Source: Fidelibacterota bacterium
Lineage (GTDB): Bacteria; Fidelibacterota; UBA8477
Assembly: GCA_021734045.1 (NCBI GenBank)
Contig: JAIPJR010000007.1
Coordinates: 1-46,140, forward strand
Direction: 5' to 3'
DNA: 46,140 nt
Every line of letters begins with the position of its first letter. The first letter of the stretch is position 1. Position numbers and translations under genes: made by a program. Positions 2,285-33,634 of the stretch are shown one piece after another. The notes below the pieces were generated by a model, which worked only from the letters and a program-made list of their open reading frames with translations, did not search any database and was not told where the DNA came from.

Positions 2285-2403
2285 TCTGCGTGTTTCAGGT
2301 GATTAAAGTCACAGGGTAAACCTTTGATTTATCTTGTTCCAATTTCCTGTTGAACCTACATTTTGCGCTCAAAAACCACACAGAGTGGCATGAAATACCG
2401 GAT

Positions 2404-2427
2404 CACCGTTACCCTGAACGGACGGTG
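2404..2427 (+). promoter_or_regulatory. Leader inverted repeat upstream of the giant surface protein
   Basis: CACCGT (2404-2409) is complementary to ACGGTG (2422-2427). Inside it, CCGTT (2406-2410) can instead pair with AACGG (2417-2421). The two stems are mutually exclusive. They lie 50-75 bases before the chosen start of the giant gene, in a 194-base leader that is otherwise featureless. This could be a leader switch or just a stem; no known riboswitch was matched. Confidence 0.25.
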
Positions 2428-2478
2428 CCAGATGGACAAGCCTTGAGGGGCGGGAAATTTAAACCGATGAGGGATGGT

Positions 2479-5400
2479 ATGTTGTTGGGGGCTACCCGAT
2501 GGCGGTCTTTAGGCTGTCAAAACTGGACAAAACTGGTCATCATTAGTGCGCTAACCGCCACATCAATCTTTAGTCAGACATTTACCCAAATTACCACGGG
2601 CGCCTTGGTTTCGGATGGGACCAACAGTACCAACCAGGCGTGGGGGGACTACGATAACGATGGTGACCTGGATCTTTTCGTTCCTACCTATAATGCAGTA
2701 GATCTTTTTTATACCAACAATGGTGACGGCACCTTCTCCCAGATTACTGTGGGTGCTTTGGTGCAGGATGCAACCCGGGCTTATTCGGCCGCCTGGGCTG
2801 ATTATGATAACGATGGATTCCTGGATCTCTTTGTCTCTCAGGTGGATAACTGGAGTAATACCCTCTATCACAATAACGGGGACGGTACCTTTACCAAAAT
2901 TACCACCGGCAGCATCGTAACTGACGCCGGGAATTCCTATGACGCTGCCTGGGCGGATTATGATCTGGACGGGGATGTGGACCTACTGGTGGCCAATGAT
3001 AATCAGAATAATTTCCTCTACCGGAATCAGGGGAATGGAACCTTCATACGCGTCACCAATACGGTGATCACTGATTTCGGTGGCTATCGTGTGTCCTGGG
3101 CGGATTTTGACAATGACAGTGATCCAGACGTCTTGGTGCAGCAACACAGTGGTACGAATGCCAACCGGGTTTTTCGCAATAATGGTGACGGCAGTTTTAC
3201 TCAAGTCGTAGCGGGAACACTACCCAATGCCACTTATGGTACACCTTTTTGGGGCGATTATGACAATGATGGCGATCCCGATTTGTTTTTGGCTCGAAAT
3301 GGTGTGAGTGAAATCTATCGTAATGATGGGGGCAGTTTCACCAGCATCATGACCACACCTGATGTAATCAGCACTGGCGCGGTATGGGGCGATTTTGATA
3401 ACGACGCGTGGTTGGATTTGTACGTGGCGAATAATGGTGCCAACGCGTTTTATCACAACAACGGTGATGGCTCCTTCACGGCAATTACTACCGGCGAATT
3501 TGTCACCAACAGTGACAATTCCTACTCAGCTACTGCTGTTGACGTGAATCTGGATGGCGCTCTGGACCTGTTTGTTTCCAATTACAACTCACAAAACAAC
3601 CAGCTCTATCTGAATGACGGCAATGCCAATCATTGGATCGTCGTGGATTTGGCTGGAGAGCTGGATAATTCGGTTGGTATAACCGCGAGCATCGCACTCA
3701 AAGCGGGAGATACGTGGCAGACCCGTCATGTGTTACCCACTGACGGTGAGTCCTTGTCGCGCCATCTTGGGCTGGGCAGTGAGACGATGGTGGATTCCAT
3801 TATCATTAACTGGCCGCAGGGGTCACCGCAGGTAGTGACCAACATTGCTGCTGACCAAATGGTGACGATTACACAGGAAGATGAGACACCGCACAGCATC
3901 AAGCTCATCGACGATCCCACGCTCAGTACAACCTACAACGGGTACGCCATCGCCTGGGGTGATTATGATAACGATGGTTATCCGGACTTATTCGTTCCCA
4001 CCTACAACGATGTGGACCGGCTGTACCATAACAATGGTGACGGGACATTTTCCCAAATCACAACCGGTGCTCTGGTCACAACCGCCACCCGGGGAGTGGA
4101 CGCGGATTGGGGAGATTATAACAATGACGGATTTCTGGATCTTTTCATTGCTCAGACTGATAACTGGAACAATAGTCTGTACAGGAATAATGGTGACGGC
4201 ACATTTACAGCGGTGACAGAAGGGAATATTGTCAGTTCGGGAGGATATACGCAAAGTGCCGCCTGGTGGGACTTTGACCGGGATGGCGACCTGGATATTT
4301 ATGTGGTGAACAGCAACAACCAGGTGAATCTGCTTTTTCGCAATAATGGCGATGGCAGTTTTACCAACCTCTCCGGACGGGTGAGTACGGAGGAAAATGC
4401 CTACAGCTATGCTGCTGTGTGGGGTGATTATAACAATGATGGCGCCGTGGATCTCTTCGTGGTCAATGATGGTAATAATTTTCTTTTTAGAAACAACGGA
4501 GTGGGGTCATTCACCCGCGTATTAACGGGCGATATTGCAAATGATGTCCACAATTCCAAAACTGCCAGTTGGGGTGATTACGATAACGATGGTTTCCTGG
4601 ATATCTTCGTTGGGAATCTGGGTGAGAGTAATGTTTTATACCGCAATAATGGCAATGGTGGCTTTGTTAAAATCACCACCGGCCCCATTGCGATGGATGA
4701 TTTGGATGTTTTCGGCAGTGTATGGGTGGACATTGATCAGGATGGTGACAAGGATTTGTATGTGACGGTGGAAAGCGATGTGAATAATGTTCTCTACCGC
4801 AACCTGGGTAATGGAACATTTGAGCGTGTGCTGCCGGGTATTACGGAAAATAGCTACAGCGGGCTGATTACCGATGGCGGTCGTTCGCTGGGCGTGGCCG
4901 TGGCGGACATTGACCGCAATGGCACGCTGGATTTTGGTGTAGCAAATTACGGTGGCACGCCCACCATTTACACAATCTCGCCCACCGGTAACAGTTGGCT
5001 GGCATTGAACCTGATGCAGCAGACCGGCGGTATGCAGCCCATTGGCGGCCAAGTTACGACTGAAGCCCTAATCGCTGGAAATGTGGTCAGCCAGACCCTG
5101 GATATGGGCGGACACCTGGGTGGTCGAGGCAGCAGCTATCAAAACAGTATCATCGGCCTGGGTGATGCAACGACGGTCACCAGTCTATCGATTGTATGGC
5201 CACGGGGCCAGGCGTGGGATACCACAGGTGTTGGGGTCAACCAGTCCCTGACAATCACCGAGTCAGCGATTCAGACGTTATTTGAAAAAGTAACGGGCGA
5301 CCCGGTCGTGGGAACCGGTGAAAATTCCATTGGTCTGGCCTGGGGAGATTATGATCAGGACGGCTTCCCCGATTTATTTGTGGCCAATTACAATGGCGTC

Positions 5401-8400
5401 AATAATCTGTTTTACAATAATGGTGATGGAACTTTCAGCCGGATTACTACAGGTGAAGTGGTTGCCGGTTCAGACTACGGTTATGGTGGTAGTTGGGGTG
5501 ACTATGACAATGACGGCTATCCGGATCTTTATGTCATTCGTTACAATCAGACCAATGCCTTATACCACAATAACGGGGACGGCTCCTTCTCCGCTGTAAC
5601 GGGAATCCTGCCCACAAGTTATAGCTATCGCAGTATGAGCAGCGCCTGGGGCGATTATGATAACGATGGTGATTTGGACCTGTTTATCGCCAATGATTAC
5701 AACCAGACGAATGAACTTTACAATAATGACGGTCAGGGTGGATTTACCCGGATGAGTGCAGCGCCATTCTCTACTGACCAGGAATATTCCAACTCAGCCA
5801 ATTGGATCGATTACGACGTGGACGGTGATGTGGATTTATTTATCGCCAACGCCAACGGACAGGCTAATCGACTGTATCGCAATAATGGTGCGGGGAGTTT
5901 TCAGTCTGTTTCCGGCGGTGTAATTACCACAGCCACGGAAAATTCACAGGGCAGCTCGTGGGGTGATTACGACAATGATGGTGATCCGGACCTGTTTGTT
6001 GCCAACGACGCGAACTCTGATAACGGTTTTTACGAAAACAATGGCGACGGTACCTTCACGCGAATTCTGGTGGGCGAAATTGTCACTGATCGGGCTAACA
6101 GCCGGGGGAGCAGTTGGCTGGATGTGGAAGGCGATGGTGACCTGGACCTGTTCGTTACCAATGTGGATGCGAACAACGCGCTTTATCTGAATCAGGGCGA
6201 TGGTTCTTTCTCACGGGCAGCCGGTGCACAGGCTGGAGAGATTGGCCCAATCATCACCGATGGTGGCACATCCTACGGCACCGCATGGGCGGACTACGAT
6301 TTAAATGGCACCCTGGATGTTGCGGTGGCGAATTATAGTGGGGAAAACAATTTTCTGTATCAAAACAACGGTGCCGGAAACAGTTGGGTTGCCATTCGAC
6401 TCCATGGTACCGCTTCAAACCAGCATGGGATAGGCGCACGGGTCGAGGTTTTAAATACGATTGACGGCGAAACCCGGTGGCAATGGCGTCAGGTTTCCTC
6501 CCAGTCTGGCTTTGGTGGTCAGCCCACCGATGTGGCCTGGTTCGGCCTGGGTGCGGACAGTGCGATTACCCAAATCCGGGTTAAGTGGCCCAGTGGTGTG
6601 GTCTGGGATACCAGTATGGTGGTTGGGAACCGCGTATTGGAAATCTGGGAAAACGCGCCCGATCCGCTTTACAGCCGTGTCACGGAAGGGGCAATTGCTA
6701 CCGATGTGGGACAGTCGTATGCCGCTAATTGGGGCGATTATAACAATGATGGTTATCCGGATCTCCATGTGGCAAATACCAGTGCTGCAAATTTTCTCTA
6801 TCATAACAATGGTGATGGGACATTAAGCAAAATCACCACCGGCGACCCGGTCGTGAACAGCTACAATTCTTATGGTGCGGCCTGGGGCGATTATGACAAT
6901 GATGGTGATTTAGACCTATTGGTGGCTAATTATGGGTACAACAATCTGTACCAGAATAATGGCGAAGGTGTATTCACTAACCAGTCAGTTTCCTATATCA
7001 CTACGATTAACCGTTATACCACTGGTGTTGCCTGGGGTGATTATGATAATGACGGTGACCTGGACCTGTTTGTAGCCAATACCAATAACAGCTATGACGA
7101 GCTGTTACAGAATAATGGAAATGGTACATTCACCCAGATTTACAATGGTGACCAGGCACCCTGGACCACCAATTACGGCTATTCATCCGGCGGCCATTGG
7201 GTGGATGTAGATGGGGATAATGATCTGGATTTGTTCGTGACGATCAACTCCGGGTCCACCAGCCAGACCAACCGGCTTTACCTGAACCAATCCACCAACG
7301 GTAACACGTTATTTACACAGACCACATCCGGTGTGCTGGTAAATGAAGGTGGTTATTCCACAGCTCAGGCCTGGGGTGATTTTGATAATGATGGTGATCT
7401 GGATTTAGTTGTCGCCAATGCCAGTGAAGACACCAGCAAGACGCGTAATTTTCTCTATCGTAATAACGGCAGCGGTAGTTTTACCAAAATCACCACCGGT
7501 GCGATTGTCACGGATAAAGACTACAGTCATTCTTGTCACTGGGGCGATTTGGATGGCGACGGGTGGCTGGACCTGATGGTGGGAAATTCCGCCGCCAATG
7601 CGCTGTATCATAACAATGGTGACGGCACCTTCACCCGACTCTACGCCGGCATGGGCGATCCCATCATGGGATCTATTCTCACCGATGGCGGATTAAGCCG
7701 GGCAGTAACATTTGTGGACTACAACCTGGATGGTGATGAGGACATTTTCGTGGCGAATCAGGGCCACGCCAATCCTCTCTACAAACACATAAACACGGAG
7801 AACAATTGGCTGCGGATACAGGCTCGCGGCAGCCGGGCAAACCATTTTGCCGATGGATCTCTGGTAAAAGTGAAAGCATCCATAAATGGACAATCCTTTT
7901 GGCAAACCCGGGAAATTACCAGTCAGACCGGTGGCTCTGCCTCCGGTGGATTAACGGCCAGTTTTGGTTTGGGGAATGCTACCCGCGCCGATTCAGTAAA
8001 AGTCATTTTCCCCAATGGTGCCGCGCAGATTCTCACCAATGTGAGTCTCAATCAAACCATCAGCTTGAATGAGCCGGAACCGCCGGTAGCGGCATTTTCC
8101 ATGGATCGCAGCTTTGGTGCGCCACCTTTAACCGTGCAGTTCACCGACTCTTCACAAGGGGTTGACGCTCAAGTGGTTTCCTGGTACTGGGAGTTTGGTG
8201 ATGGGGAGACCAGCAATCAGCAGCATCCGTCTCACGTTTTTACCGAGGAAGGCACCTATACGGTCAAGCTGACCATTGCCGACGCCAACGGTTCACCGGC
8301 TTCTACCGAGAAAACCGTCGACGTGAGTTACTTTACGGATGTTACCGGCGGTGATCTGTCTGTGCTGTCCAGCTATTCCTACAGCGCCAGCTGGGGTGAC

Positions 8401-11400
8401 TATGACAACGATGGTGATGAGGACATCTTTGTTTCCAATTACAGCAACCGGGTGAACTGGCTGTTCCGCAATGACGATGGCGTCTTCACCTGGATAGAAA
8501 GCACGCCTTTCACCGAACACTATGGAAATACCTACAGCGGACATTGGGGTGATGCAGATAATGATGGTGATCTGGACCTCCTGGTTCTGAATACCTCCTC
8601 CTACGGCCATTTCTACATCAATCAGGGGAATGGTACGTTTCTGGTGGACGAAGATTCGGAGATTTCCGATACCTACTTTAATAATCCCTACGACGCCACC
8701 TGGGGTGACATGGATGGGGACGGTGATCTGGATTTGCTGGTGGCACAGTACAACAGTTATCCCATCCTTTTTGAGAATGTGGACCCGGAAAATCTAGAAT
8801 TCGATCAGGTCAGCGAAAGCCCGCTCATTCAATCCTACCGCAGTTACACATCGGTAAATTTTGTGGATTATGACCAGGACGGTGATGTTGACTGCTTTTT
8901 CACCACCTATGGTGCCAATTATCTCTACATCAACGTGGGGGATTCCACCTTCGTCACACCGGACGCCTCTTTTAATAATGAAACCCAATATTCATACGGA
9001 CAAACCTGGGGTGATTACGACAACGACGGTGATTTGGATTTGTACCTGGCCAATTACTCCGGGATTAACGCACTCTATCGTAACGATGGAGATAGTTTTA
9101 CCAAAATAACCTCCTCAGGAGGTCTGAATGGCAATTCCTATAGCTACTCTGCCAGCTGGATTGACTTGAATAATGACGGCTGGCTGGATTTGTGGGTCAG
9201 CAACTACGGTCAAAATGATGATTATTTTGAGAATGACGGTGATGGGACATTCACCCGAAATACCACGCTGAATATCCTCTCCAATAATTATTACACCTAC
9301 CAAAGCGTGTTTGCTGATTACGACGGGAATGGCTCACTGGATGTGTTCACACCATTTTACCAGTCATCAACAACCAATACGCTGAACCGGAATAATGGCA
9401 ATTCCAACCATTGGTCCACTATTTCGCTGCGAGGGCGTGAGAGCAACCGGTTCGGGGTAAACGCGAAAATCCGCCTTTTGGCCTGCCTGGGAGGTACGAG
9501 CACCACCTGGCAGATGCGTGAAGTGGGGGCTGATGTGGGCGGTTATGGAGAAAATTCACTGGTGGCACACTTTGGACTGGGTGAAGCAGAGACTATTGAC
9601 AGCCTGATTGTGGAATGGCCCGGCGGATTGGTCCAATCGTATGGTCAGCTTCCGGTAGATACAAAATTTCATATCACCGAATCCTCGGGACCACCCCCCA
9701 ATCTCAGCTGGACCCCCCCGGATCTGAGCACAGTTGTAGTGGGGCAAAACCAGACGTGGTCAACGACCGTCACCCTGGTCAATACCGGTGAAGGTTCGCT
9801 GGTTTATGATTTCTCCGTGACCGACTTCTGGCTCAGTACCTCGCCAGGATCGGGAGAAATTCCCGCCGGAGATAGCGTGGAGGTGACACTGGAAATTAAC
9901 GCTGACGACCTGAGCCAGGGGGTTTATGAGGGGAAATTTACCTTGTACACCAACGATTTGGATGATGCTGTCGTCCAGATTCCTGTGCAGGTTCAGGTCG
10001 CCAGTTTCGCCGCATTTTTTGACTATTCACCTGATCAAGGGTTTGCGCCACTGACGGTTACCTTCACGGATCAGTCCATCAGTGTGGATTATCCCATCAC
10101 CCAATGGGAGTGGTTTTTCGGAGACGGGACGGGCTCGAATGAGCAAAATCCCACCCATACTTACACGGCAGAAGGTGAATATCCGGTAACCCTCATGATT
10201 ACCAATTCCGCAAACCAAACCGCCCAATTCAATGGTGGTACGGTCTCGGTGACACCAACCGTTTCGGTGGATTTTGCCGCGGACGAAACCAGTGGTGGTA
10301 ATCCCCACACCGTGGCCTTCACGGACCTGAGTGTCTTCCATGCCGACACCACCAATCAATCCTGGACATGGAATTTTGGTGACGGGGTTCAGAGCGGACT
10401 GCAAAATCCATCGCACACCTACACAACCGAAGGCGTATTTACGGTCTCTCTCACCGTGAGTGATGGTACCAATTCTTACACCGTCATGAAAAACGACTAC
10501 ATTACGGTGATTAACTATCCCAATTTTGATCTGTCGGTATCCACCCGCGACTCACTGGATATGGAGATTGTGGAAAATGATGTCTCCACCGATACCATCG
10601 TGGTGTATAACCCCGGCGGCTTGGCAGATTTGGAATTTGGAACCAGCGAATCCATGAGTTGGCTTTCAGTGGTACCCGTATCAGGAACCGTGCCGCCTGA
10701 CGATTCCCTGACCGTGGTTCTCACCTACTCCTCCAATGATCTGGGTACATACACCGGGACACTCCGCTTCTTTGTCAATGACGAAAACGCCACAGTGCTG
10801 GATCTTCCGGTGACCATGAATGTGGTGGAATATCCCTACCTGCCTGAACCTTTCCGGGCAATGTATGCCGACAATGGAGCCGCATTAAATCTCACCTGGA
10901 CTGACCGGTCGCGCATTGAAGACGGATATCGTCTTTACAAGCAGAACGGTGTGGGAAACTGGGACCTGCTCTGGACAGCACCGTCCAACACGGTTGAATA
11001 CACGGATACGGCTGTAGACACCAGCCAAACCTGGCGATACCAGATCAGGAGCTTTCTCAATTCACGCGGTGAATCAACCGATGCCATTGAGATAACCGTC
11101 CCCGCTAAGCCACAATTAGCCTCCGTGAACCGGACGGGCGATGTGGTGACGTTAACACCGGCCAGCACTGCCACGGGTACCAACGGCCTGTTTGCCGAGC
11201 GCTGGGTCAATGATGACCCGCCGGTGATCGGCGGACGCTCCACCACGGCGGGCAGTGTTCGGGATACGATTAATTTTGGATTTGCTGATCGGTATCAATA
11301 CCGGGTCTATGCCTATGGTGGTTCACCTTCCGGCAGCTATGGTCAATCCTGGCCGTCGGAAAAAATCGCGCTGGCTGAGGCATTACATGGTGACTATACC

Positions 11401-12291
11401 GGAGATGGCAACGTGGATGTTCAGGATGCTATTCCCTTTGTAAATGCATGGCTCACAGACAATTACACCAAGGAAACCGGACCGGTGAGCGGTACTGCAC
11501 CTGGTTTCAACTTCTCGCCTGACGGTGTCTTTGACAGTTTTGACATGGCAGCATTTGTGGGAATGTATCGCTATTCGGCGGCCAATTTAACCGCTTCTAC
11601 ACTGGCCCGTATGTCGCTGACCCGACCTGAAGATTTCCAGGTCCGGTACGAGCCCGATGAAACAGGTATTACCATACGACTTCTGCCATCGGCATCGATT
11701 TCACCCACGGCCATAAGCGTCTGGCTGCAGTATAATCCGGCCAGCCTTGCCCTGAGCGAGTTTGACATGACAAACGCTCCGGATCAGATAATGGTGTTGA
11801 CAGCAACCGATGCCAATCCGGTGAATCTGGCCTGGATTGATATGACGCAGGTGGGTCTTAATGTCTCCGGCAGTACTGAAATTACCATTCGACTCAACCA
11901 CACGAATGGCGGTGTGTATAAATCCGATGTTTTAACCATCGCCACATTACTGGACGCGTCCGGGGAGTACACATCGCTGAATCGCGTCAACACAACCGTG
12001 GTGTACACGCCGGAAGAATTTGTGCTGGAGCTGGCCTACCCCAATCCATTCAACCCGACCCTGCACCTGAAATATGGCCTGCCGGAAGCGGATCAGGTCA
12101 CGGTGCAGATTTTTGACATTCGGGGTCACCAAGTAACGCAACTGGTGAACCAGCAACAACAAGCCGGTTGGTATCAGGCAGTATGGGATGGCAAAGATGA
12201 TTCAGGACGGATGGTAGCAACAGGCGTTTACTTCATCCGAGCCCAGGCTGCCGGTCTGACCCATATACAAAAAGTTGTTTTCCTGAAATAA
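2479..12291 (+). CDS. Giant secreted FG-GAP/ASPIC-UnbV repeat protein with PKD, dockerin-like and type IX sorting domains
   Basis: A ~3270-residue cell-surface or secreted protein. ATG 2479 is preferred over ATG 2467 and TTG 2350 because GAGGG lies 5 bases upstream and it gives a compact signal peptide ending near TSIFSQ. The body is five modules, each with seven FG-GAP/VCBS repeats (core WGDYDNDGDLDLFVAN, a calcium-binding DxDxDG loop) followed by an ASPIC/UnbV domain near residues 382-467, 837-930, 1300-1392, 1774-1864 and 2309-2401. A PKD domain (~1869-1951) sits between modules 4 and 5. Then follow an Ig-like domain (~2405-2506), two PKDs (~2510-2679), another Ig-like domain (~2682-2784), an FnIII-like domain (~2790-2874), a dockerin-like pair of EF loops (~2970-3030, DYTGDGNVDVQD), a cohesin-like sandwich (~3052-3176) and a C-terminal sorting/FlgD-like tail (~3182-3270, YPNPFNP). 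The repeats imply seven-bladed integrin-like propellers. The role is probably adhesion, matrix or ligand binding; no catalytic domain was seen. Confidence 0.93.
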   Translation: MLLGATRWRSLGCQNWTKLVIISALTATSIFSQTFTQITTGALVSDGTNSTNQAWGDYDNDGDLDLFVPTYNAVDLFYTNNGDGTFSQITVGALVQDATRAYSAAWADYDNDGFLDLFVSQVDNWSNTLYHNNGDGTFTKITTGSIVTDAGNSYDAAWADYDLDGDVDLLVANDNQNNFLYRNQGNGTFIRVTNTVITDFGGYRVSWADFDNDSDPDVLVQQHSGTNANRVFRNNGDGSFTQVVAGTLPNATYGTPFWGDYDNDGDPDLFLARNGVSEIYRNDGGSFTSIMTTPDVISTGAVWGDFDNDAWLDLYVANNGANAFYHNNGDGSFTAITTGEFVTNSDNSYSATAVDVNLDGALDLFVSNYNSQNNQLYLNDGNANHWIVVDLAGELDNSVGITASIALKAGDTWQTRHVLPTDGESLSRHLGLGSETMVDSIIINWPQGSPQVVTNIAADQMVTITQEDETPHSIKLIDDPTLSTTYNGYAIAWGDYDNDGYPDLFVPTYNDVDRLYHNNGDGTFSQITTGALVTTATRGVDADWGDYNNDGFLDLFIAQTDNWNNSLYRNNGDGTFTAVTEGNIVSSGGYTQSAAWWDFDRDGDLDIYVVNSNNQVNLLFRNNGDGSFTNLSGRVSTEENAYSYAAVWGDYNNDGAVDLFVVNDGNNFLFRNNGVGSFTRVLTGDIANDVHNSKTASWGDYDNDGFLDIFVGNLGESNVLYRNNGNGGFVKITTGPIAMDDLDVFGSVWVDIDQDGDKDLYVTVESDVNNVLYRNLGNGTFERVLPGITENSYSGLITDGGRSLGVAVADIDRNGTLDFGVANYGGTPTIYTISPTGNSWLALNLMQQTGGMQPIGGQVTTEALIAGNVVSQTLDMGGHLGGRGSSYQNSIIGLGDATTVTSLSIVWPRGQAWDTTGVGVNQSLTITESAIQTLFEKVTGDPVVGTGENSIGLAWGDYDQDGFPDLFVANYNGVNNLFYNNGDGTFSRITTGEVVAGSDYGYGGSWGDYDNDGYPDLYVIRYNQTNALYHNNGDGSFSAVTGILPTSYSYRSMSSAWGDYDNDGDLDLFIANDYNQTNELYNNDGQGGFTRMSAAPFSTDQEYSNSANWIDYDVDGDVDLFIANANGQANRLYRNNGAGSFQSVSGGVITTATENSQGSSWGDYDNDGDPDLFVANDANSDNGFYENNGDGTFTRILVGEIVTDRANSRGSSWLDVEGDGDLDLFVTNVDANNALYLNQGDGSFSRAAGAQAGEIGPIITDGGTSYGTAWADYDLNGTLDVAVANYSGENNFLYQNNGAGNSWVAIRLHGTASNQHGIGARVEVLNTIDGETRWQWRQVSSQSGFGGQPTDVAWFGLGADSAITQIRVKWPSGVVWDTSMVVGNRVLEIWENAPDPLYSRVTEGAIATDVGQSYAANWGDYNNDGYPDLHVANTSAANFLYHNNGDGTLSKITTGDPVVNSYNSYGAAWGDYDNDGDLDLLVANYGYNNLYQNNGEGVFTNQSVSYITTINRYTTGVAWGDYDNDGDLDLFVANTNNSYDELLQNNGNGTFTQIYNGDQAPWTTNYGYSSGGHWVDVDGDNDLDLFVTINSGSTSQTNRLYLNQSTNGNTLFTQTTSGVLVNEGGYSTAQAWGDFDNDGDLDLVVANASEDTSKTRNFLYRNNGSGSFTKITTGAIVTDKDYSHSCHWGDLDGDGWLDLMVGNSAANALYHNNGDGTFTRLYAGMGDPIMGSILTDGGLSRAVTFVDYNLDGDEDIFVANQGHANPLYKHINTENNWLRIQARGSRANHFADGSLVKVKASINGQSFWQTREITSQTGGSASGGLTASFGLGNATRADSVKVIFPNGAAQILTNVSLNQTISLNEPEPPVAAFSMDRSFGAPPLTVQFTDSSQGVDAQVVSWYWEFGDGETSNQQHPSHVFTEEGTYTVKLTIADANGSPASTEKTVDVSYFTDVTGGDLSVLSSYSYSASWGDYDNDGDEDIFVSNYSNRVNWLFRNDDGVFTWIESTPFTEHYGNTYSGHWGDADNDGDLDLLVLNTSSYGHFYINQGNGTFLVDEDSEISDTYFNNPYDATWGDMDGDGDLDLLVAQYNSYPILFENVDPENLEFDQVSESPLIQSYRSYTSVNFVDYDQDGDVDCFFTTYGANYLYINVGDSTFVTPDASFNNETQYSYGQTWGDYDNDGDLDLYLANYSGINALYRNDGDSFTKITSSGGLNGNSYSYSASWIDLNNDGWLDLWVSNYGQNDDYFENDGDGTFTRNTTLNILSNNYYTYQSVFADYDGNGSLDVFTPFYQSSTTNTLNRNNGNSNHWSTISLRGRESNRFGVNAKIRLLACLGGTSTTWQMREVGADVGGYGENSLVAHFGLGEAETIDSLIVEWPGGLVQSYGQLPVDTKFHITESSGPPPNLSWTPPDLSTVVVGQNQTWSTTVTLVNTGEGSLVYDFSVTDFWLSTSPGSGEIPAGDSVEVTLEINADDLSQGVYEGKFTLYTNDLDDAVVQIPVQVQVASFAAFFDYSPDQGFAPLTVTFTDQSISVDYPITQWEWFFGDGTGSNEQNPTHTYTAEGEYPVTLMITNSANQTAQFNGGTVSVTPTVSVDFAADETSGGNPHTVAFTDLSVFHADTTNQSWTWNFGDGVQSGLQNPSHTYTTEGVFTVSLTVSDGTNSYTVMKNDYITVINYPNFDLSVSTRDSLDMEIVENDVSTDTIVVYNPGGLADLEFGTSESMSWLSVVPVSGTVPPDDSLTVVLTYSSNDLGTYTGTLRFFVNDENATVLDLPVTMNVVEYPYLPEPFRAMYADNGAALNLTWTDRSRIEDGYRLYKQNGVGNWDLLWTAPSNTVEYTDTAVDTSQTWRYQIRSFLNSRGESTDAIEITVPAKPQLASVNRTGDVVTLTPASTATGTNGLFAERWVNDDPPVIGGRSTTAGSVRDTINFGFADRYQYRVYAYGGSPSGSYGQSWPSEKIALAEALHGDYTGDGNVDVQDAIPFVNAWLTDNYTKETGPVSGTAPGFNFSPDGVFDSFDMAAFVGMYRYSAANLTASTLARMSLTRPEDFQVRYEPDETGITIRLLPSASISPTAISVWLQYNPASLALSEFDMTNAPDQIMVLTATDANPVNLAWIDMTQVGLNVSGSTEITIRLNHTNGGVYKSDVLTIATLLDASGEYTSLNRVNTTVVYTPEEFVLELAYPNPFNPTLHLKYGLPEADQVTVQIFDIRGHQVTQLVNQQQQAGWYQAVWDGKDDSGRMVATGVYFIRAQAAGLTHIQKVVFLK

Positions 12292-27978: not shown

Positions 27979-28848
27979 ATGAAATCCATACACACATTTA
28001 AAAACCTGGGAAAAACCCTTCTGCCGGTAACCCTTGGGCTGCTGGTAGCCTGCACGAACCTGCTGGAGCCTGAACCGCTCTCGGAGAACTACAACCCCCT
28101 GGATCCGGATCACTATTCACCACCCCAAATCATCCTGGCTGATTTACCCGCCGACGGTATCACCACTAATCTGCGCCAATTGCCACTGAGCTTTGGGGGT
28201 GATTGGGCTGAGCTGACTCAATATCGCTGGCAGACAGGAATCAGCGGGCATTTGTCAGCCTGGACAGAATGGCGTGATGGTGGTACCTTCTCCGATTCAG
28301 CAAACCTCTACCAGGGGCTCTTGGATACGCTGTTCCTGGATGAAACCTATGGTACGGAATCCTTTACCGTAAAAATCCAGGCCAAATATTCCAGTGAAAC
28401 TACCGCGTCCGATTCGCTCACCCGGATTTTTACCGTTGACGCGCTCCAATCACCCACTGCTGTGCTGCGACCTCAGGCCGTTTATACCACCGGCGGGGCG
28501 TTTGAACTGGAACTCTGTTTTGACAGCATGGCAGATTGGACCGCGGCTGATCTGGTGGTGAATTTTGATTCCACCGCCATTGAATTCACTGCAGTGGTTA
28601 CGGTGAGCAATGGTGCCGGATTGAGTGTGTACGATATCGGGACGGATGCCGTGAATCTTAGCCTGGGAAATTATGGAAATGCCCAACCGGTGGTAATCAA
28701 ACTCTCCGGGCAGGCAGACGACACTCCCGGTGTATATGATATTACGCTCACAGACACGCGATTCATGGATGGTCCCACTACTTCGGATACCTTTACTGCC
28801 GAAACCACTATCAGCCGGGTAATTGTGTTGCCCGAGTCTGATGATTAA
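27979..28848 (+). CDS. Lipoprotein with cohesin-like domain
   Basis: A 289-aa predicted lipoprotein. ATG 27979 sits 8 bases after TGAGGA, and the signal peptide ends in LLVAC. Residues ~35-150 are beta-rich with FnIII- or Ig-like character (LSFGGDWAELTQYRWQTG). Residues ~155-285 follow the cohesin pattern: a GG-start strand, LVVNFDSTAIEFTAV (the usual YDP..L.f..v), a Gly-rich loop, then VVIKLSGQADDTPGVYDITL. Cohesins bind dockerins, and a dockerin-like segment is present in the giant secreted protein 16 kb upstream. The link between the two is inference. The gene overlaps the next start by one base. Confidence 0.7.
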   Translation: MKSIHTFKNLGKTLLPVTLGLLVACTNLLEPEPLSENYNPLDPDHYSPPQIILADLPADGITTNLRQLPLSFGGDWAELTQYRWQTGISGHLSAWTEWRDGGTFSDSANLYQGLLDTLFLDETYGTESFTVKIQAKYSSETTASDSLTRIFTVDALQSPTAVLRPQAVYTTGGAFELELCFDSMADWTAADLVVNFDSTAIEFTAVVTVSNGAGLSVYDIGTDAVNLSLGNYGNAQPVVIKLSGQADDTPGVYDITLTDTRFMDGPTTSDTFTAETTISRVIVLPESDD

Positions 28849-29993
28849 TGCTTTTTACTCAGGAAAGATTACGTTTAACCATGAGAAATTTTACCATCGT
28901 TTATCGCTTTGACTTGACACGGTTTCTGCGCCGTGGCGTGACGCTTGCCGCGGTATTTTTTAGCCTCCTGGCTGGTCTGAATCAACCAGTGCTGGCCCAG
29001 GAGGCCGAGTTGATTGAAATTGTCATTTACGACTTTTCCGGAAACGAGCTCACCACGGTGACGCCGGAAGAGTTTGAGTTGGTGGCACCCCAGAAAGGTG
29101 ACCGCCGATTTCGACTGGTCACAGACGAATCGGGCAAACTGTTTGTCCGTGCCCGGGAGATGCGTGCCGCTCTGGAGTCCGGCGATGTGGTGCAGCTCCG
29201 CTATATTGGGGATAATCTCCAGTACCGCTACAGCAACTCCGGCATGGTGACATATTTCGACGATATCACCTATTTGGAATTTGAGGTTTCACTGCTCTCA
29301 TCTCTGCGGATTCAACTCACCAATTTCAGTCCCATTAAGTCCGACCCGGCTGCCGATGTGGTGCGTTATGGCACAGAAGAAAATATTGCAATTGATGATA
29401 AAAACGGCTTTTTTGTTTTCGTTACCGGCGCTGGTAAACAGGAGCTGCAAATCAATATTAAGGGTTTTCAGGAAGTACGATTTGACATTAATGAAGAAGC
29501 GTTCACCACCAACCCTGAGATGAAGCGCGAGGTGAGTGTCATGCTCATTCCTGAAACCAATTATAAACTCTATTTCCGCGGCATGTACCTCATGGAATTG
29601 GGCTACTTTGCTGAAGCGGAACAGGTATTTACCCAGGCACTGGGGATTGGTACCGATCACTCTTTCAGCGAATGGCTCTATCCCAATTTCTTTATTCAAT
29701 ATTGCCGTTACAATGCCGGCAAACAGGTAGACTATAATCGCGTGCTCCAGATTGGTAATCAGGCTAAGCTGAATGATCCCCTCATGGCGGCACAGGTGTT
29801 TCACTTCCTCTATCAGGTGTATGGTCGTGTGAGCATGCCCGGTGTCCAGTCTGCCGAAGAGGTGGCATTGGCAGCCAAGCAGGCGTTGGATGAGGAGCAG
29901 CTAATTTTTGGTGATCAACGCTTTTATTATTTCAAAATCGGCAGCCGGCTCATTACTGGCATTAATGCCGCAGCAGGTGAAAAAAAAACGTAA
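28848..29993 (+). CDS. Exported TPR-like protein, N-terminal half of a frameshift-split outer-membrane protein
   Basis: A 381-aa zero-frame product. It begins with a coupled TAATG start (ATG 28881 is an alternative) and a signal peptide ending NQPVLAQE. Residues ~50-215 are beta-rich and carboxypeptidase-regulatory-like in feel (IEIVIYDFSGNELTTVTPEEF). Residues ~230-365 are helical and TPR-like (YLMELGYFAEAEQVFTQALG). The frame ends GEKKT at a TAA immediately after a run of nine A. The -1 frame is open from the same A-run for another 419 codons with no start codon near its beginning, so the two frames probably form one ~799-aa protein. Confidence 0.75.
   Translation: MLFTQERLRLTMRNFTIVYRFDLTRFLRRGVTLAAVFFSLLAGLNQPVLAQEAELIEIVIYDFSGNELTTVTPEEFELVAPQKGDRRFRLVTDESGKLFVRAREMRAALESGDVVQLRYIGDNLQYRYSNSGMVTYFDDITYLEFEVSLLSSLRIQLTNFSPIKSDPAADVVRYGTEENIAIDDKNGFFVFVTGAGKQELQINIKGFQEVRFDINEEAFTTNPEMKREVSVMLIPETNYKLYFRGMYLMELGYFAEAEQVFTQALGIGTDHSFSEWLYPNFFIQYCRYNAGKQVDYNRVLQIGNQAKLNDPLMAAQVFHFLYQVYGRVSMPGVQSAEEVALAAKQALDEEQLIFGDQRFYYFKIGSRLITGINAAAGEKKT
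29980..29988 (+). other. Nine-adenine slippery tract, candidate -1 frameshift or transcriptional-slippage site
   Basis: Frame-0 codons read GAA AAA AAA ACG TAA. Slipping back one base at A AAA AAA (29981-29987) gives AAA AAC GTA AGT and opens the downstream frame. A Shine-Dalgarno-like AGGTG lies immediately upstream. The downstream frame has a stop (TGA 29978-29980) just before the tract and no ATG, GTG or TTG before 30155. A single-base sequencing or assembly error in the homopolymer would look the same. Confidence 0.6.
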
Positions 29994-31246
29994 GTTCAGC
30001 GCTGCCAGCCCCAATACTTCCTTCAGAATCGGTATCGGCCCAACCGGTTGACACGGTTCAAACCCAACCAGAAGACGTAAACGATGCGCCAGAGGTTTTT
30101 ACTCCTTCCATTTACTGGACGGCTGCTGAATTACAGCAAATTGAACAGAATCTGGTGCCTGCTCGCCAGGTGGTAAATCCGGCTGACTGGAACAATGCCC
30201 CCAAACTGCGTCCTCAGTTCCAGGGTACTTTCTCGGCTTTCACATCCACAAATGCCATGGATTACAACTATCTGGAGGACGGTGAGGTGGGTGTCCCAAC
30301 ACGCATCCATACCTATGAAGATTCGGTGGAACACCTGTATGGCAATGGTCAAATCGCCTTCCGGTTCGGACCCCTCTCCTTTAATCTGGGATATTTTCAC
30401 GGAAATACGACCGTTGAAAATTTGAACAGTCCCGGCGCCCAAGCCCTGCGTCAAATCGGCATCCAAAAATCATGGAATGCAGGGGCCGCCCTAAATTTAT
30501 TACCAGGGCTGTCTGTGGGAGCTAACTACAATTCCCACAATTTTTCTCTGGAATATCAAAATCAACCCCTGGCTCTCTTTGATGACGGCGATTGGATAAC
30601 CATTGGCGAAGAGCAAGCTGATTATGAAACCTACGATGTGGGGGCCACCTTAAACAGCGGCAGTTTTTATCTGGGCGGGTGGGTAACTGATCTGGGGGAT
30701 GATGTGGTATGGCACGGCGGTGGTGGTGGCATCCTTGGTCAGGATACCATTCCTCTGCGCCAGACGTACCATGCGTTTTTGAGCTTTCCCTTTGTCACGT
30801 CTCGTTTGGTGCTGGGAAATCATGTGAGTTTTCAGACCTTCGAAGATTCGGCGCAGGTGATGGAGGTGTGGCTACCCACCCAGCGGATTAATGCCTCCTG
30901 GACCGCTTCGCTGAATGCCGCTTTCACGTGGCGAACGAGCCTGAGTTTATTGTACCGGGTTGACATGCGTCTGGGAGAATATACCCAGGATAAACCGGAC
31001 GATATTTATGATGATGTTGATGAATATGACGATGTGACACCGGAGGTAACGATAACCCAGAGTGTGGGTCTTCAACTCTCAGTGCCCATCGGTTCTTACC
31101 AGCTCTCCGGCTTCATCGCGCAGCAGCAGCATAATGGTATCCAGCGTAGCATCGTTCGATATAGTCCCAGCATCATCAATCTTGTGGAGCGCACCCAGGC
31201 GTATGATACAACCATCCTTGGCGTCACCCTGGCTGCCAGTTTTTAA
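29987..31246 (+). CDS. Outer-membrane beta-barrel domain, C-terminal part of the frameshift-split protein
   Basis: A 419-residue open frame that continues the TPR-like protein in the -1 frame. Residues ~1-60 of this part are a Pro/Glu/Ser-rich linker (SSALPAPILPSESV, VDTVQTQPEDV). From ~75 onward, alternating amphipathic strands with aromatic girdle residues appear (GQIAFRFGPLSFNLGYFHG, YDVGATLNSGSFYLGGW). The protein ends LGVTLAASF, the terminal-Phe signature recognised by the BAM complex. The first in-frame start is GTG 30155, which would lack a signal peptide, so independent translation would not give an exported barrel. This is the last gene of the envelope cluster and is followed by a terminator. 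Confidence 0.75.
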   Translation, partial: NVSSALPAPILPSESVSAQPVDTVQTQPEDVNDAPEVFTPSIYWTAAELQQIEQNLVPARQVVNPADWNNAPKLRPQFQGTFSAFTSTNAMDYNYLEDGEVGVPTRIHTYEDSVEHLYGNGQIAFRFGPLSFNLGYFHGNTTVENLNSPGAQALRQIGIQKSWNAGAALNLLPGLSVGANYNSHNFSLEYQNQPLALFDDGDWITIGEEQADYETYDVGATLNSGSFYLGGWVTDLGDDVVWHGGGGGILGQDTIPLRQTYHAFLSFPFVTSRLVLGNHVSFQTFEDSAQVMEVWLPTQRINASWTASLNAAFTWRTSLSLLYRVDMRLGEYTQDKPDDIYDDVDEYDDVTPEVTITQSVGLQLSVPIGSYQLSGFIAQQQHNGIQRSIVRYSPSIINLVERTQAYDTTILGVTLAASF

Positions 31247-31425: not shown

Positions 31426-32544
31426 TTGAACAAGCTGAGAACAAGCGTTCTTGCCCTCGTCGGTTTTATGTTGATTCATGCCGGAGCCACATTACCTGCT
31501 CAGGATTTAGATAAAATATTCTTCCGACCCCAAACCACGATTGGCGGGTATGGGGAATTACACTATAACAGTAGTAAACCAGAAAATGGCCGCAACAGTG
31601 CTACATTGGATTTTCACCGGTTTGTCCTGTTTTTCAGTCACGCCTGGAGTGAAGAATTCGCATTCAAGTCCGAATTGGAAATCGAACACAATCTCATTGC
31701 AGGCGGTAAATCTTCAGGTGAAGTGGAGTTGGAGCAGGCTTATGTGGATTATCACCCCAATTCATACTGGGGTATTCAAGCAGGTGTCCTGCTCCCATCG
31801 GTTGGGATTATTAATGAATTCCACGAACCGCCCCTCTTTTTTGGCGTGGAGCGGCCGGACTATCACAAAGTCATTATTCCCACCACCTGGTTTGGGAATG
31901 GTGCGGCTATTTATGGGAATATTGTCCAACTGGATTATCGTGTTGTTGTGATGGAGGGGCTCGATGGCACCGGATTTTCCGCCAAAGAGGGCATCCGCGG
32001 TGGTCGCCTGAAGGGCTATAAAGCTGATGCCACTCACCCGGTGATAAACCTGAGTCTGAGCAAGCGGAATTGGCTGGGTATGAATTTGGGTGGTTCCGTA
32101 ACCATGACCCAGGCGTCGGATACGCTGAACGGTACATCAGCGGTGAATCAGACGCTGGTAAGTGAATTTCACCTCCAGTTCACACAATCTAATTTCCACG
32201 CCACCGCTGAGATGGGACAGATTCAGTACGATCGGCCGGATCTGGTGGGTGGTGTTTCCGCTGCCCGTGGTATCTATGTGGATTTGGGGTATGATTTAGC
32301 GCCATTACTGGGATTGAGCGGTGCCGTCATTCCCTGGGTGCGGTATAGTGATATTAACACCGCAGCGAAGACAGACGGCACTATTCCCAACCTGGATCAG
32401 CAGCACCGGTATGCACTTTGGCGAGTGGGGTTACAGGTTAAACCGTTGCCGGATGTGGTTTATAAACTGGATTTCGGTAAGAAAATGCCGGAAACGGGTG
32501 CTGATGTCTCTCAGTTGAATCTGGGTGTGGGGTATATGTTTTGA
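31426..32544 (+). CDS. Outer-membrane porin, phosphate-selective porin O/P-like
   Basis: A 372-aa barrel protein. GAAAGGAG lies just before the ATG. The signal peptide ends ATLPAQD. The mature part opens with TTIGGYGELHYN and contains ATLDFHRFVLFFSHAWSEEFAFKSELEIEHN, split here only by short turns, the usual start of OprO/P-like porins; the C-terminus LNLGVGYMF ends in Phe. Strands such as VELEQAYVDY and YWGIQAGVLLPSVG fit the family. It is the first gene of a three-gene operon (TTGA overlap with the next). The Fur-like operator upstream suggests that it admits an iron-related substrate rather than phosphate, but that is inference. Confidence 0.82.
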   Translation: MNKLRTSVLALVGFMLIHAGATLPAQDLDKIFFRPQTTIGGYGELHYNSSKPENGRNSATLDFHRFVLFFSHAWSEEFAFKSELEIEHNLIAGGKSSGEVELEQAYVDYHPNSYWGIQAGVLLPSVGIINEFHEPPLFFGVERPDYHKVIIPTTWFGNGAAIYGNIVQLDYRVVVMEGLDGTGFSAKEGIRGGRLKGYKADATHPVINLSLSKRNWLGMNLGGSVTMTQASDTLNGTSAVNQTLVSEFHLQFTQSNFHATAEMGQIQYDRPDLVGGVSAARGIYVDLGYDLAPLLGLSGAVIPWVRYSDINTAAKTDGTIPNLDQQHRYALWRVGLQVKPLPDVVYKLDFGKKMPETGADVSQLNLGVGYMF

Positions 32545-33119
32545 TACGTTATTATTTTTTTGGGTTTCGCTTCCTGGCGATCGTCGGGTGCCTTTTCCTG
32601 GCGATTCCTCAGGTACTAAATGCCGGTGTCCGTGAGGAGGCCGAAGGGGTGATCCGCGACTTTTTTCCTGACGCAAAATCCATCGAATTCCAGGCTTTGG
32701 CGCTGCAAAATGATGCCCGAACCGTCGCTGAGCAAACCGCTGGCCAGGCGTTTTTATTGGACAAACTCTACTATTGGGAAATTCGTTCCGGTGAAAGCAT
32801 TCTGGGATATGCCGTATTGGATAATGTGAAGGGCAAAGCCCATCCAATAACCTACCTGGTGCTATTCTCGTCTGAATTAAAAGTGCAGCGTGTCCGCGTG
32901 ATTCGCTACCGGGAACAGATTGGTGGTGCAATTCAGGAACCACGCTGGTTGGAGCAGTTTCGCGGAAGGGACAGGCATTCCGGGTTTGACCCGGGACGGC
33001 ATATTGACGGCATCAGCGGGGCGACCATCTCCGTGAATGCCATCAGCCGGGGGGTTCAGCGCATCACCGTATATTTATCACAATTAGCCAATAACACAGT
33101 TGCAGCGGATATGGAATGA
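32541..33119 (+). CDS. FMN-binding domain protein, predicted to be covalently flavinylated
   Basis: A 192-aa exported protein. The only sensible start is TTG 32541, which overlaps the porin stop; TGGGG lies a suitable distance upstream. Residues 1-28 form a signal peptide (FLAIVGCLFLAIPQVLNA). The FMN-binding domain ends with DGISGATIS (156-164), the motif that the flavin transferase ApbE modifies on its Thr (Thr162 here). Such domains carry electrons outside the cytoplasm, as in RnfG and NqrC. No apbE is seen in the window. It is coupled to the following membrane protein by an ATGA overlap, which suggests the two form a membrane-to-periplasm electron path. Confidence 0.85.
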   Translation: MIRYYFFGFRFLAIVGCLFLAIPQVLNAGVREEAEGVIRDFFPDAKSIEFQALALQNDARTVAEQTAGQAFLLDKLYYWEIRSGESILGYAVLDNVKGKAHPITYLVLFSSELKVQRVRVIRYREQIGGAIQEPRWLEQFRGRDRHSGFDPGRHIDGISGATISVNAISRGVQRITVYLSQLANNTVAADME

Positions 33120-33634
33120 TATTGGAAAATCTGACACTCTCCCAACTACCGGTAACGCTAAAGCGGGTGTTACTGGCCATGTTAATAACCCTGACTGTAG
33201 GCGTTTCGCTGGGGTTGAGCCTGGTCTTTTTTACCACTTCAGCCCACCCGGAGGGTATTTCCCGTCATTACCAGGGTGACCAGCCGGTGGATGAGTTAGA
33301 GATTCCCGAAAAATATCCCATGCCGGTGAAGGAATTACTCATTACCACCCATAATCATATTCTCACCTTCACATTCATTTTCGGCATTTTGGGTATTTTG
33401 ATTCAATTTGTCTCCCGACTTACCCCATCCATGAAACAGTCATTGGGCCTGGAACCCTTTCTCTCGATTCTGCTCACCTTCGGGTCCATGTGGGGGATTC
33501 GTTTCATCCACAGTGGCTTTGTGTGGTTGATGCTGGCCAGTTCTATGGTGATGTACCTCTCGTTTTACCTCATGGTCGTGTTGCTTGTTATGGATTTAAC
33601 GGGCGAAACCGATTTGAAGGAGCGCGCTGGTTAA
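33116..33634 (+). CDS. Four-helix membrane protein, partner of the FMN-binding protein
   Basis: A 172-aa protein with four predicted membrane helices (~16-38, 78-100, 110-130, 135-160) and a ~38-residue outer loop after the first. Histidines sit at or inside helices 2 and 3 (TTHNHILTFTF and GIRFIHSGF). Paired intramembrane His residues are the usual ligands of b-type haem, so a quinol- or haem-linked role is plausible but unproven. The start overlaps the previous stop (ATGA). No established family name is recognised. Together with the flavoprotein and porin it may form an iron-responsive redox module. Confidence 0.7.
   Translation: MILENLTLSQLPVTLKRVLLAMLITLTVGVSLGLSLVFFTTSAHPEGISRHYQGDQPVDELEIPEKYPMPVKELLITTHNHILTFTFIFGILGILIQFVSRLTPSMKQSLGLEPFLSILLTFGSMWGIRFIHSGFVWLMLASSMVMYLSFYLMVVLLVMDLTGETDLKERAG

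Follow-up and report, generated by a model that had tools for sequence, protein, structure and literature searches.

Two long reading frames meet at a run of nine adenines in the 46,140-nucleotide stretch of Fidelibacterota DNA analysed here (the window), which raises the question of whether they form a single gene with two products and, if so, how the frames are joined. Our reading, to which we assign a probability of about 0.57, is that of one gene with an RNA polymerase slippage site in its middle, giving a short soluble and a barrel-anchored form of the encoded protein. The locus in the window genome (G000) is composed of the following features:

28848..29993, + strand: upstream ORF of 381 aa, encoding an exported protein in which beta-rich domains accompany a helical TPR-like region; translation probably starts at the second ATG, 28881; 90% and 77% identical to the orthologues in G001 and G002
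28881..28997, + strand: putative Sec signal peptide, hydrophobic VTLAAVFFSLLAGL followed by VLA|Q, recognised by eye from the translation; its position is conserved in the alignment with G001 and G002
29980..29988, + strand: A9 tract, proposed as the site of RNA polymerase slippage; A_AAA_AAA lies within it at 29981-29987
29991..29993, + strand: zero-frame TAA stop, kept at the same register in G002
29987..30121, + strand: proline-rich linker joining the exported part to the barrel, −1 frame; without regular structure in models of low confidence
30122..31246 including the stop, + strand: short helix, then a predicted 14-strand outer-membrane beta-barrel with C-terminal Phe, −1 frame; from the translation, a structure model (mean pLDDT 53) and structural matches

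The layout agrees with that proposed in an earlier sequence-only reading of the locus. The zero frame crosses the run as GGT GAA AAA AAA ACG TAA and ends right after it, and the −1 frame, read from 29987, stays open for the claimed 419 residues (NVSSALP...LAASF, with the terminal Phe) up to the TAA at 31244-31246. The slippery heptamer A_AAA_AAA, of the X_XXY_YYZ type, lies in the zero frame within the run. The earliest ATG, GTG or TTG of the −1 frame is the GTG at 30155, which leaves about 170 bases without a start codon as stated, and no signal-peptide-like segment of the barrel's own was seen in the translation ahead of its strands. The outer membrane is therefore probably reachable for the barrel only as a fusion. 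Translation restart at the barrel was considered and rejected, its first start being GTG 30155, without a signal peptide. A continuous frame had been expected with either eight or ten adenines; this holds for ten, which join the two frames, but not for eight, which lead into the third frame and to a stop after about 22 codons. Elsewhere in the window, positions 2350-12291 form a single ORF of 3313 codons with TTG as its first start.

The short form would comprise about 370 aa from ATG 28881; its N-terminus resembles a signal peptide, and it contains beta-rich domains as well as a helical region of TPR-like character. The putative long form would consist of the same protein followed by the proline-rich linker, the short helix and the 14-strand barrel. 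The earlier description of an exported TPR protein stands in its first part, given the N-terminus recognised by eye, and is weak in its second, as the best Pfam match of the upstream half is TPR_2 at an E value of 0.0037, below the cut-off of that family. No Pfam family was found for the barrel by sequence, and its likeness to known proteins is one of fold only. Fourteen strands and a C-terminal Phe are counted in the barrel model (mean pLDDT 53), and this low-confidence model matches CymA with a Z score of 23.2 and an rmsd of 3.3 over 285 residues at 7% identity; further structural matches are OmpG, FadL-like barrels of Bacteroidota BAM complexes, and FadL. We describe the downstream part as barrel-like, a predicted 14-strand antiparallel outer-membrane barrel with a C-terminal aromatic residue, and leave its family unclaimed. 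The full-length fusion model, built from the G001 protein, has a pLDDT of 45.5 and is usable for domain order alone.

Among the phylum genomes searched, the gene was found in three only, all of one genus (Candidatus Marinimicrobia): the window genome, MAG Tobar14m-G39 (G001, locus L005) and MAG CG1_02_48_14 (G002, locus L006). Profile searches of 242 other phylum genomes with either half gave no match, so conservation rests on these three genomes. The neighbouring genes are syntenic across the three loci. In G000 and G001 the gene is followed by a Porin_O_P-like barrel, an FMN-binding protein and a small membrane protein (31426-33634 in the window); the 12.3 kb G002 locus has no match to those three genes, and a Wzz-like gene follows instead.

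The junctions read GGTG-A9-CGTAAGT in G000, GGTG-A10-CGTAAGT in G001 and GGTG-A10-TTAAGT in G002. The total length of the junction is equal in G000 and G002, the A10 of the latter being a substitution and not an insertion, and G002 has its zero-frame TAA at the same place as G000 and its barrel in the −1 frame too. The single extra A of G001 gives a continuous ORF of 820 codons. On the question whether the run is conserved together with the frame break, every orthologue keeps the run and two share the −1 break, whereas G001 is fused with A10. In all three, the two frames that do not give the fusion are closed either immediately or within about 24 codons. Because G000 and G001 are the closer pair, the more economical history of these junctions starts from a split ancestor and needs a single insertion, in G001; the alternative is two parallel losses. 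Identity to G000 in the barrel half is 83% for G001 and 44% for G002. Between G000 and G001, dN/dS is 0.05 in the upstream half and 0.09-0.12 in the barrel, and synonymous sites are saturated against G002. Judged from these ratios, purifying selection is acting on both halves.

Long adenine runs are rare in the window genome, which holds seven A9/T9 runs in its whole 2.54 Mb. In 202 sampled genes (308 kb) from 389 kb of G000 stretches, there is a single coding-strand run of at least nine adenines, the present site, where resampling of synonymous codons predicts about 4.8, and there are three runs of A8 where it predicts 7.4; these are all small numbers. Such avoidance in genes was proposed by Baranov et al. 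2005 as a mark of genomes where runs are slippery (PMC1088944). The motif [EKQ]KK followed by a codon starting with A occurs in 13 places, and only the one discussed here carries A9. Conservation of the run is by itself weak evidence for slippage, since codon usage gives a probability of about 0.25 that GAA AAA AAA is kept in one relative by chance. About 60 A/T runs of at least nine were inspected in the three genomes, and two long ORFs clearly meet in different frames at this locus only; a marginal pair of 128 and 62 codons lies at another such run (L010). The number of A9/T9 runs differs greatly inside the genus, with 7 in G000, 9 in G001 and about 55 in G002.

The other mid-gene A9 common to G000 and G001 lies in dnaX, a gene recognised by sequence and found in all 60 genomes searched. 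Its loci in the three genomes are:

L026:932-2701, − strand: dnaX of G000
L015:932-2668, − strand: dnaX of G001
L096: dnaX of G002

The dnaX run is A9, A9 and A10 in G000, G001 and G002, in frame and at the same codon in all three, and the gene is fused in each. It lies in the context SPEKKSPVG, at codon 377 counted from the first start, and the two other frames are closed by stops; the A10 of G002 reads VEKKNPVG. In G000 and G001 the run is flanked by CCGG on both sides, a possible small hairpin. No run longer than eight was found in the other dnaX genes of the order and the phylum where the frame could be scanned by script; 5 of 30 could not, and one of these (G028, from another family of the phylum) has an A9 about 411 codons into a dnaX-like ORF (L114, ~2762-2770), perhaps of independent origin. 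The gene is the textbook example of such slippage: at A9 in a fused dnaX template with nearby stops in the other frames it is known from Thermus thermophilus (PMC5009743), and the dnaX of Chlorobi, with A10 and two ORFs, is slippery by prediction (PMC3711429). By this analogy, the dnaX run of the genus is a probable Thermus-like slippage site for gamma and tau forms. The claim that a run is kept in all three genomes is limited to dnaX and the present gene.

The same two products might arise at translation, by programmed −1 frameshifting in which paired tRNA-Lys slip on A_AAA_AAA. The heptamer stands in the right frame with a stop directly behind it in both split orthologues, a slip in the fused G001 would yield the short form, and an insertion-sequence cluster with A_AAA_AAA is a proven bacterial case (PMC4066793). 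The run is, however, longer than the heptamer requires, and a search for stimulatory RNA structure downstream, by a pseudoknot-free model, found no stem-loop or pseudoknot-like stability in the window (z from +0.4 to +1.9) and unrelated structures in G001 and G002 (z from −1.7 to 0). A downstream stimulatory structure is usual, although not universal, for −1 frameshifting. The GGTGA abutting the run is too close for a usual −1 stimulator. Transcriptional slippage is favoured over a ribosomal heptamer by the A9/A9/A10 runs in dnaX of the same three genomes, and we consider ribosomal frameshifting unlikely.

In another explanation, DNA replication slippage could switch the barrel on (as in G001) or off (as in G000 and G002) between cells of a population. 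Registers do differ between the orthologues, at the species level and with one consensus per genome, and the barrel, exposed at the surface, evolves more quickly than the upstream half (identity to G002 of 44% and 77%, respectively). MutS1 (TIGR01070) was not found in G000 and G001, where only MutS2-like genes were seen, and the run may for this reason be unstable at the DNA level as well; these assemblies are 92% and 82% complete, and the absence may be a gap. MutS1 is present in G002 and G003, and G002 is nevertheless split; loss of the whole of mismatch repair was rejected, MutL being present. Against such phase variation, which we judge improbable, G000 and G002 keep exactly one register over saturated divergence, A9 and A10 are short for a phase-switching tract, and dnaX, which could not be switched off, has the same kind of run. 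Alternatively, assembly or mutation may have removed one A from a simple fusion gene such as the clean A10 fusion of G001, and these are draft assemblies in which homopolymers are error-prone. The same break in the same register nonetheless recurs in the independent assembly of another species (G002), and in both split copies the 1.26 kb downstream of the junction are free of further stops and frame breaks. Moreover, none of about 14 other mid-gene A/T runs of at least nine, lying well inside ORFs of at least 200 codons in the three genomes, is broken, against two of three here (rough Fisher p 0.02), which makes general homopolymer error an unlikely cause of the frame break; an artefact or recent pseudogene has, in our estimate, a low probability.

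RNA polymerase slippage, our preferred reading, would work as follows. Transcription of A9 would give mRNAs with 9, 10, 11 or more adenines. Those with nine, or with any number outside 10+3n, would encode the signal-peptide-bearing soluble protein ending at or soon after the run, and those with ten (or 13) would encode the in-frame fusion to the linker and the 14-strand outer-membrane barrel. One transcription unit with one translation start could thereby supply free periplasmic and barrel-anchored forms in a roughly set ratio. With one added A, G000 would pass from A9 to A10 and G002 from A10 to A11, yielding the fusion in both; in G001 a plain copy would give the fusion and slippage the short form. 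Slippage would make both forms from either template, which would explain a register that shifts around a persistent run. Polymerase slippage would need the run alone, and in the absence of downstream RNA structure and of extended synonymous constraint, none of which was found around the junction, the run alone seems to suffice. Slippage is suggested by the −1 break and TAA that G000 and G002 share although their synonymous sites are saturated, and by the keeping of the run in the fused G001; we count against it that there are three orthologues only, that G001 is fused at the DNA level and that the barrel model has a pLDDT of 53. For a wider reading, in which the slippage site sets the ratio of free periplasmic to barrel-tethered protein, split and fused templates exchange freely, and the lineage has fixed A9-10 slippage sites in two unrelated genes, this one and dnaX, we judge the chances to be even. 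The two-product interpretation of the sequence-only reading is supported by the break at a conserved run in two of three orthologues and by selection on both halves; that slippage occurs, that both products are made and what their roles are, we infer.

Few cases of productive transcriptional slippage are known in cellular bacterial genes. If the reading is true, slippage here decides between a free protein and one fixed in the outer membrane, and the three orthologues show the template moving between the split and the fused state while the A-run persists, with the dnaX run of the same genus as a natural internal control. Automatic gene calling would miss the larger part of the barrel half, whose beginning lacks a start codon, and correction of the frame would conceal the short product.

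The proposed mechanism is of a known kind, and the protein carrying it would be a new one. A literature search for slippage in Marinimicrobia or for slippage-made barrels found no precedent in the library searched. The locus displays traits of bacterial transcriptional-slippage genes, namely A9, A10 and A10 at the junction, a conserved ORF in the shifted frame, and avoidance of runs of at least nine adenines in genes (1 against ~4.8, small numbers). CymA, OmpG, FadL and BAM-associated FadL-like barrels share with the present model (pLDDT 53) a 14-strand antiparallel barrel with a C-terminal aromatic residue. Shigella mxiE likewise has a split template, in which insertion of a single untemplated base at a run joins two ORFs that overlap, but its run is of U and its product is a secretion-system regulator without a membrane barrel (PMC1088944). 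The dnaX of Thermus and Chlorobi resembles the present gene in its A9 or A10 run, in nearby stops in the other frames and in a register fused or split by lineage, and differs in gene and product (PMC1088944, PMC5009743, PMC3711429); dnaX in the present genus is fused throughout. In Citrobacter rodentium, tssM1 is interrupted after A11, slippage gives 20-25% full-length protein, and both forms are needed; tssM3 of Yersinia pseudotuberculosis has poly-A slippage in the reverse register (PMC4256274). Here, too, an envelope protein is broken right after poly-A, with a short and a full form, and the template is split in one species and fused in another. Unlike the present protein, TssM has an A11 run and resides in the inner membrane; in the present case the fusion would add an outer-membrane barrel to a short form that would itself be soluble. 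Slippage in tssM was demonstrated by experiment and in the present gene is inferred from sequence. By analogy with the tssM genes of Citrobacter and Yersinia, the best reading of the three orthologues is that split and fused registers of the template are interchangeable.
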